A DNA stretch of 64,000 nt from an uncultured Pelagibacteraceae bacterium (GTDB lineage Bacteria; Pseudomonadota; Alphaproteobacteria; Pelagibacterales; Pelagibacteraceae), in NCBI GenBank assembly GCA_902635865.1, contig CACPPD010000001.1, positions 175,495 through 239,494 of the forward strand. Reading direction: 5' to 3'. How positions within the stretch are numbered: the first letter of the stretch is position 1; the number at the start of each line of letters is the position of its first letter. A program made the position numbers and the translations under genes. Positions 7,071-45,141 of the stretch are shown here, one piece after another. A model generated the notes under the pieces. That model worked only from the letters and a program-made list of their open reading frames with translations, had not been told where the DNA came from and made no database searches.

Positions 7071-8369
7071 ATGAGTGAAAAAATAGTAGTCCCAGTTCTT
7101 GGTGAAAGCATAACAGAAGCGACAGTTGCAAAATGGTTAAAAAACGCAGGTGATACAGTCGAAGCAGACGAGCCAATTGTAGAGCTTGAGACAGACAAAG
7201 TAAACTTAGAAGTGCCATCTCCAATTTCTGGTGTTTTAACAGAGATAAATTCACAAGATGGATCAGTCGTTGAAGTAGGAGCATTATTAGGTTCTGTATC
7301 AGAAGAAGGTGGAGTGGTTAAATCTGCACCAAAAACCCAAAAAGAAATCAAGCAAGAGAAGATAGTTCCTGCAGAGAGCAATGTAATTAAATTAGATGCA
7401 AATAAAAAAGAACCAAAAGTATTTGAAGAAAAAGAGACAGAAAAAACCAAAGAGAAACCTTTAGTTTTAACTGAGGAAGTTAAACCAGATGTTGCTCCAA
7501 AAAGAGATATTAATCCAACCTTGTCTCCAGCAGTGAGAAAAATAGTAACTGAAAATAATATTGATATTAATTTAATTCAAGGTTCAGGAAAAGATGGGAG
7601 AGTTTTAAAAGGAGATTTAATAAGTTTGATGGGTGCAAATCCAAAACCATCTGAAAGAAAAATTCAATATGGTGAAGAAGAACGAATTAAAATGACTAGG
7701 TTGAGACAAACTATTGCAAAAAGATTAAAGCAAGCTCAAGAGAATGCTGCTCTTTTAACTACATTTAACGAGGTTGATATGAGCAGTGTAATGGAAATGA
7801 GGAAAGAAAATCAAGAGGATTTCCAATTTCGTTATGGGATAAAATTAGGATTTATGTCATTCTTTGTTAAAGCATGTGTAGTTGCTTTAAAAAATTTCCC
7901 TGCCGTGAATGCTGAAATAGATGGTGATGAGATTATCTATAAAAACTATTATAATATTAGTTTTGCTGTTGGAACAGATAAAGGTTTGGTTGTTCCAGTT
8001 TTAAGAAATGCAGATGAATTATCTTTTGCTGATATAGAAAAAAATATTAAAGAAATTTCAGAAAAAGCTCGAGATGGAAAGCTAACAATTGAAGATCTTC
8101 AAGGAGGAACATTTACAATAAGTAATGGAGGTGTGTATGGGTCTATGCTTTCAACCCCAATACTAAATTTACCTCAATCTGGTGTGTTGGGCATGCATAA
8201 TATAGTAGAAAGACCTATTGTTGTAGATGGTGAAATCAAAATAAGACCAATTATGTATTTAGCATTATCATATGATCATAGAATTATTGATGGAAAAGAA
8301 TCAGTATCTTTTCTTAAAATGATTAAAGAAAACTTAGAAAACCCTAGAAGGTTGTTTTTAGATATTTAA
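7071..8369 (+). CDS. sucB: Dihydrolipoyl succinyltransferase (E2)
   Basis: Lipoyl domain [13 protein letters not shown]-terminal [19 protein letters not shown]. Confidence 0.96.
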
Positions 8370-44473: not shown

Positions 44474-44501
44474 CTTGAAAAAAACAAATTAATTCCCATA
44501 T
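44474..44501 (+). promoter_or_regulatory. Sigma32 heat-shock promoter for hsp20
   Basis: CTTGAAA - 14 nt - CCCATAT, close to CTTGAAA-N13-15-CCCCATnT. Confidence 0.75.
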
Positions 44502-44505
44502 AAAC

Positions 44506-44563
44506 TATGTGGGTCGCCTAATGGGGCTTACATAAATAAACTTGCTTAACAAAGGAGGATATA
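44506..44563 (+). promoter_or_regulatory. ROSE-like RNA thermometer in the hsp20 5' leader
   Basis: Hairpin I TATGTGGGTC(G)CC-TAAT-GGGGCTTACATA (44506-44534); hairpin II CTTGCT-TAACAA-AGGAGG (44541-44558) pairs a UUGCU motif with the Shine-Dalgarno and leaves a G opposite G, as in ROSE elements. Confidence 0.68.
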
Positions 44564-45010
44564 ATGACAAGTAAGGATCTATCTATATTTAACTCACTTA
44601 GACCTTTTTCAATTGGTTTTGATGATATGTTCGACCAATTCGAAAATATGTTGGGAAATGGGAATTTGACAATGCAGTCAAATTATCCACCATACAACAT
44701 ACGAAAGACAGGCAAAGACAACTATGCAATTGAGGTAGCATTAGCTGGCTTTAGCAAAAAAGACGTAGAGGTTGAGTTTGAGGACAACTTATTAACAGTC
44801 AGAACAAAACAAGTTAATAAGTCTGAAAACAGTGATGTTGATGGAGAAATAATTCATAAGGGGATTTCTCAAAGACAATTTGCAAGATCATTCACTATTG
44901 CTGATGATGTAAAAGTTAATGGTGCTGAACTCAAGGATGGTCTTTTAACAATATCTTGTGAAAGAATAATTCCAGAACATAAAAAAAAGAAACTTATTGA
45001 AATTAAATAA
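44564..45010 (+). CDS. Small heat shock protein (Hsp20/IbpA family)
   Basis: LRPFSIGFDDMFDQFENM; alpha-crystallin domain YAIEVALAGFSKKDVEVEFEDNLLTV. Confidence 0.95.
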   Translation: MTSKDLSIFNSLRPFSIGFDDMFDQFENMLGNGNLTMQSNYPPYNIRKTGKDNYAIEVALAGFSKKDVEVEFEDNLLTVRTKQVNKSENSDVDGEIIHKGISQRQFARSFTIADDVKVNGAELKDGLLTISCERIIPEHKKKKLIEIK

Positions 45011-45023
45011 GTCTTAAACCTTG

Positions 45024-45047
45024 CTTGTGGGGAGTAGTCCCCACAGG
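45024..45047 (+). terminator. Strong GC hairpin downstream of hsp20 without a clear U-tract
   Basis: TGTGGGGA-GTAG-TCCCCACA perfect 8 bp stem at 45026-45045, extendable by a T-G wobble and C-G. Confidence 0.5.
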
Positions 45048-45141
45048 TATGAACAAATCTTAAAAACTGATTAATTTATACAAGTTCGTTTTGTATTACA
45101 AAAAAACCTATAATGAGCAGATTTTTTTTCTAGCATCGAAT

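Follow-up and report, generated by a model that had tools for sequence, protein, structure and literature searches.

The leader of the hsp20 gene in the 64,000-nucleotide stretch of DNA analysed here (henceforth the window) is very probably a ROSE-like RNA thermometer, to judge from its sequence. The larger arrangement that we propose, namely a two-hairpin ROSE-like thermometer under an RpoH promoter, to which Pelagibacter and one sister genus add a pairing of codons 2-4 with a CCUURCUUG motif in the 3' untranslated region (3'UTR), is in our judgment highly likely. The elements that make up this arrangement are:

44474 to 44480, plus strand: -35 box CTTGAAA of sigma-32 (RpoH) type, recognized by the consensus CTTGAAA/CCCATAT across leaders
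44495 to 44501, plus strand: -10 box CCCATAT, recognized by the same consensus; its spacing places the inferred transcript start near 44508-44511
44506 to 44534, plus strand: hairpin I, with which the mRNA is predicted to begin, from folding and covariation
44541 to 44547, plus strand: anti-SD arm CUUGCUU, which contains both the ROSE motif UUGCU and the G of the mismatch, G44544; invariant in the genus
44552 to 44558, plus strand: SD strand AAGGAGG, paired with the anti-SD arm, from folding and conservation
44564 to 45010, plus strand: hsp20, encoding an IbpA-like small heat-shock protein of 148 aa with its ATG at 44564, from Pfam and NCBIfam
44567 to 44576, plus strand: coding-start element ACAAGTAAGG, spanning codons 2-4 and one further base; its synonymous sites are frozen, and it can pair with the 3'UTR motif by complementarity
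45019 to 45028, plus strand: 3'UTR motif CCTTGCTTGT, reverse-complementary to the coding-start element apart from one G-U pair
45024 to 45047, plus strand: GC-rich hairpin closing the 3'UTR (-21.1 kcal/mol, z -3.7), whose lower stem overlaps the 3'UTR motif

When folded in isolation, CTTGCTTAACAAAGGAGG (44541-44558) adopts the structure (((.(((....))).))), in which C44541 pairs with G44558, U44542 with G44557, U44543 with A44556, C44545 with G44554, U44546 with A44553 and U44547 with A44552, and G44544 faces G44555 as a G-G mismatch. The initial annotation had described this fold of the arm on the SD, mismatch included, and both the sequence check and the folding recovered every base and pair that it named, together with the U44547-A44552 pair, which it had not listed. 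The computed stability of this hairpin II is weak: at 4, 25 and 37 C it amounts to -6.2, -3.5 and -2.0 kcal/mol, respectively. The leader displays the features by which an element is recognized as ROSE-like: 1) a U(U/C)GCU motif lies opposite the SD in the 3'-most hairpin and contains a mismatched G. 2) At least one stable hairpin, here hairpin I, is found upstream, and it folds at 44506-44534 as had been claimed. 3) The gene in whose 5' leader the element is situated encodes a small heat-shock protein, and the element, again as claimed, directly precedes the hsp20 ATG. The product of this gene matches the Pfam HSP20 model with an E-value of 5e-17, and its best NCBIfam match is IbpA, with a score under that model's cut-off. 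The earlier interpretation of the leader as a two-hairpin ROSE-like element is supported.

In a single genome, the arm/SD motif is within chance: TTGCTN{3,10}AGGAG occurs in 3 copies in the window against 0.9 expected, with at least 3 copies in 7 of 100 shuffles, and in 22 copies genome-wide, though among 10 of these that were inspected only the hsp20 copy lies in a leader. It is the conservation of the leader, the covariation of hairpin I and the specificity of an independently trained covariance model that set the leader beyond chance. The 81-nt leader region is more stable than its shuffled versions (z = -3.3), none of the 200 shuffles being equally stable. Within hairpin I, 18 cells are changed on both sides with the pairing kept, as against 7.1 +/- 2.7 in shuffles, a number that 0 of 500 shuffles reach, and the pairing drops when the partner strand is slid.

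The genome is one of Candidatus Pelagibacter, in SAR11, as the initial annotation had supposed. Leaders were compared across about 107 species of the genus, four sister genera (g5, g173, g174 and g175) and at least 20 species of a sister family. Every intact hsp20 leader that was read keeps the promoter, hairpin I and the arm/SD hairpin, and Hsp20 itself was found in 36 of the 37 high-quality genomes of the genus. The CTTGCT/AGGAGG pairing, on whose conservation in close relatives the initial annotation had staked its reading, is retained in every intact leader of the genus that was read, and also in sister genera. The alignment of these leaders, proposed along with it as a search for covariation, gave a positive answer for hairpin I; hairpin II has pairs that are constant throughout the genus, where covariation has no purchase on them. 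In the sister genus g173 the arm carries UCGCU instead of UUGCU, and the sister SAR11 family has three-hairpin leaders, in which UUUAAUCGCUUAAGGAGGAUUAAA is preceded by two hairpins and UCGCU lies opposite the SD; both forms are allowed by the ROSE motif U(U/C)GCU (PMC3669281). Five of these three-hairpin leaders with UUUAAUCGCUUAAGGAGGAUUAAA (L131, L133, L138, L226 and L228) match no Rfam family at E <=0.5. A covariance model, R1, built from 20 Pelagibacteraceae leaders with the window sequence excluded from training, gives the hsp20 leader of the window 73.8 bits (E 1.3e-18), whereas no other place in the genome exceeds 24 bits. In a class-wide sample the five next-best places of R1 (L237-L241, E 1e-4 to 3e-3) all lie before hsp20 genes, and these ROSE-like leaders belong to other AT-rich alphaproteobacterial families. 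A weak second R1 match is present in the window at 7854-7898 on the minus strand (17.9 bits, E 0.009).

The Rfam ROSE search, suggested earlier as a check, gave a divided answer. The best Rfam match of the region is indeed ROSE_3 (RF02523), over its full length and with 24.3 bits (E 0.017 in 1.2 kb), but this lies under the gathering score of 43; hence, we call the leader ROSE-like and leave it out of RF02523. No Rfam family reaches its cut-off anywhere in the 64-kb window. Scanned over the class, ROSE_3 produced nothing above its cut-off and weak matches only, few of them at hsp20, and Rfam is therefore of no use as a detector. In another alphaproteobacterium a sub-threshold ROSE_3 match (L031:1501-1570, 32.8 bits) is situated before a ClpB-like gene.

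The promoter is equally well preserved, with at least 11 of the 14 positions of the box pair CTTGAAA-N14-CCCATAT matched in 120 of 125 leaders and a spacing of 14 in 118. In the genome at hand, the copy at 44474-44501 is the sole strict match to this pattern. The genome encodes two sigma-70 factors, one of which is RpoH, above the TIGR02392 equivalog cut-off, so that boxes of the CTTGAAA/CCCATAT type and an RpoH occur in one genome. With a start near 44508-44511, the mRNA would begin with hairpin I. This predicted start lies upstream of 44541, whereas one downstream of that position had been named earlier as speaking against the thermometer.

Short ROSE elements with two hairpins are already known and tested in Pseudomonas (PMC3669281). 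The Pseudomonas ibpA leader resembles the one described here in its sigma-32 promoter, its IbpA-type small heat-shock gene, the GC-rich hairpin I at its 5' end and a hairpin II in which U(U/C)GCU lies on the SD (PMC3669281). The two differ in the pairs that flank the core of hairpin II on both sides, which are G-C in Pseudomonas and U-A and U-G in SAR11 (PMC3669281); moreover, unlike that of Pseudomonas, the SAR11 leader is AT-rich and is accompanied by complementarity between coding start and 3'UTR. With the ROSE elements of rhizobia and Caulobacter, and with RF02523, it shares the motif, its position and a GCC/GGG hairpin I. Classical ROSE elements possess three to four hairpins (PMC3669281), whereas two are found here and three in the sister SAR11 family. 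In the literature searched we found no ROSE element described for SAR11, although a report listing 'a possible RNA thermometer' among the motifs of SAR11 strain HIMB5, whose gene it gives only in its supplement, may be prior notice of one (PMC6429828).

Codons 2-4 of hsp20 are ACA AGT AAG with hardly a synonymous exception in 106 species: threonine is encoded by ACA in 106 of 106 cases, serine by AGT in 106 of 106 and lysine by AAG in 102 of 104, against a background elsewhere in hsp20 of about 12% AGT and 21% AAG for the same amino acids. A few bases past the stop codon, beside the GC hairpin, 114 of 124 species carry CCTT[AG]CTTG, which is complementary to CAAGTAAGG and whose core occurs once in the genome. 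On a tree of 124 hsp20 genes, computed with the first codons left out, 7 changes fall to the coding element and 8 to the 3' motif; on 5 branches both change together, whereas 20,000 branch-length-weighted draws gave at most 4 such coincidences. This tree test took the place of a best-of-60-windows duplex-energy ranking, which was dropped because the GGGG hairpin confounded it. A strict scan picked out the variant loci by their coding state, which leaves their 3'UTR state unbiased. Three variant species show compensatory upkeep of the kind expected of an icaR-like contact, with a clean G-C to A-U compensation between coding start and 3'UTR motif in L119 and a pairing regained with a one-base bulge in L104 and L145; in the others both sides have decayed, and L146 and L152 have lost both motifs. 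Across genera, g175 has both elements, whereas g5, g173, g174 and the sister family lack both and keep the leader. On account of this distribution and the co-change, it is the 3'UTR, rather than the anti-SD arm, to which the coding start answers. The coupled evolution of gene start and 3'UTR suggests a contact between the two ends of the mRNA, and we infer a long-range link between them on top of the thermometer.

It is possible, and we entertain it tentatively, that the leader is a plain ROSE-like thermometer and nothing else, with the coding-start and 3'UTR motifs having separate roles, such as a start-codon context on the one hand and a transcript-end or protein-binding element on the other, and their complementarity being incidental. 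Other genes of the window, examined as a control, also show complementary runs of at least 10 between their first codons and the 50 nt past the stop, mostly A/T or G-U rich; as such runs arise by chance in A/T-rich genes, a single genome is insufficient and conservation is needed. The joint loss in L146 and L152 does not by itself prove pairing, and folding of the full-length mRNA, which is too noisy to decide the matter, predicts a strong contact in L022 and L027 and one near zero in the window's own mRNA. Against an incidental complementarity stand the co-change on more branches than any null draw produced, the compensatory or bulge-compensated changes in L119, L104 and L145, and the joint presence or absence of both elements across genera.

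A more doubtful reading, drawn from folding models, is a two-state switch in which the arm would lie on the SD when cold and on codons 3-5 when warm, such that the coding start actively frees the SD. In Turner-model folding of the leaders alone the SD stays closed up to 45 C, but once 15 nt of coding sequence are added the fold of lowest predicted energy joins the arm to AAGUAAG in the coding start and not to the SD. When the coding start is included, the modelled openness of the hsp20 SD in the window is 0.22 at 4 C and climbs to 0.80 at 40 C; when it is left out, the value is about 0.2 throughout. A rise of more than 0.2 between 10 and 37 C is predicted in 46 of 118 species with the coding start free and in 2 of 118 with it occupied. 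Such a switch is nevertheless unpredicted in over half the species, and the non-canonical pairs of ROSE elements are poorly handled by the energy models from which these values derive. Further, the coding start varies in step with the 3'UTR rather than with the arm. A helix between arm and coding start was rejected as the cause of the frozen codons, given that g5 has the same arm without those codons.

It is unlikely that the 3'UTR instead gives rise to a small RNA which, independently of temperature, acts in trans on codons 2-4 of its own mRNA to repress it. The 3'UTR motif does precede a strong hairpin and, so placed, could serve as the seed of a small RNA, and there is a precedent in OppZ and CarZ of Vibrio, in which 3'UTR sequence is likewise complementary to its own message (PMC7398697). 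However, a search that was positive in E. coli and Caulobacter did not find Hfq in any of four SAR11 genomes, of which two are single-contig, and this makes a classical trans-acting small RNA less likely. The 3'UTR hairpin is also without a U-run terminator in the interval 45011-45141 between the convergent genes, and hsp20 may lack a classical intrinsic terminator altogether. In contrast to OppZ and CarZ, the searched SAR11 genomes are without detected Hfq, and a processed small RNA is not indicated (PMC7398697).

Finally, it is quite improbable that the leader is no thermometer at all and merely sequesters the SD to hold hsp20 translation low, or binds a protein. The same static structure would serve for this, but the exact ROSE motif with its mismatched G, the small heat-shock gene, the sigma-32-type promoter and the class-wide tie to hsp20 all speak against this.

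Returning to the thermometer with its 3'UTR pairing, we envisage that RpoH makes the hsp20 mRNA upon protein unfolding and so sets the mRNA supply. In the cold, hairpin II would hide the SD and block 30S binding, and upon warming its weak helix, with a U-G pair, the G-G mismatch and two G-C pairs, would open and Hsp20 would be made. In Pelagibacter and a sister genus, codons 2-4 would in addition pair with CCUURCUUG in the 3'UTR, a contact that might act as a second lock on the start region or else keep that region off the anti-SD arm. As long as the mRNA is not being translated, this contact would occupy +4 to +13, within the footprint of the ribosome, and loading ribosomes would then displace it. 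According to the energy model, a free coding start can draw the arm off the SD with rising temperature, and an occupied coding start keeps the SD closed. Whether the ROSE hairpin and a cis contact between codons 2-4 and the 3'UTR together form an end-to-end clamp that gates translation, in bacteria without detected Hfq, is to our mind evenly balanced.

Pairing of 5' and 3' regions within one mRNA is known from icaR (PMC3868564) and other mRNAs (PMC7821165). As in Pelagibacter, the icaR 3'UTR of S. aureus carries a motif complementary to the initiation region of its own mRNA (PMC3868564). The target there is the SD, whereas in Pelagibacter it would be codons 2-4, with a thermometer on the same mRNA and with evolutionary evidence as the ground for the pairing (PMC3868564). 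The combination of a thermometer and a 3'UTR pairing on one mRNA is one that we have not found described.

SAR11, which ranks with the most abundant cell groups in the ocean, has very few regulators, with two sigma-70 factors and no Hfq found. If true, the link between a thermometer and the 3'UTR of the mRNA that carries it would constitute an added layer of a kind that we have not found described for RNA thermometers, and a conserved thermometer on the small heat-shock gene of SAR11 would provide these bacteria, which are central to questions of ocean warming, with a direct molecular temperature sensor.
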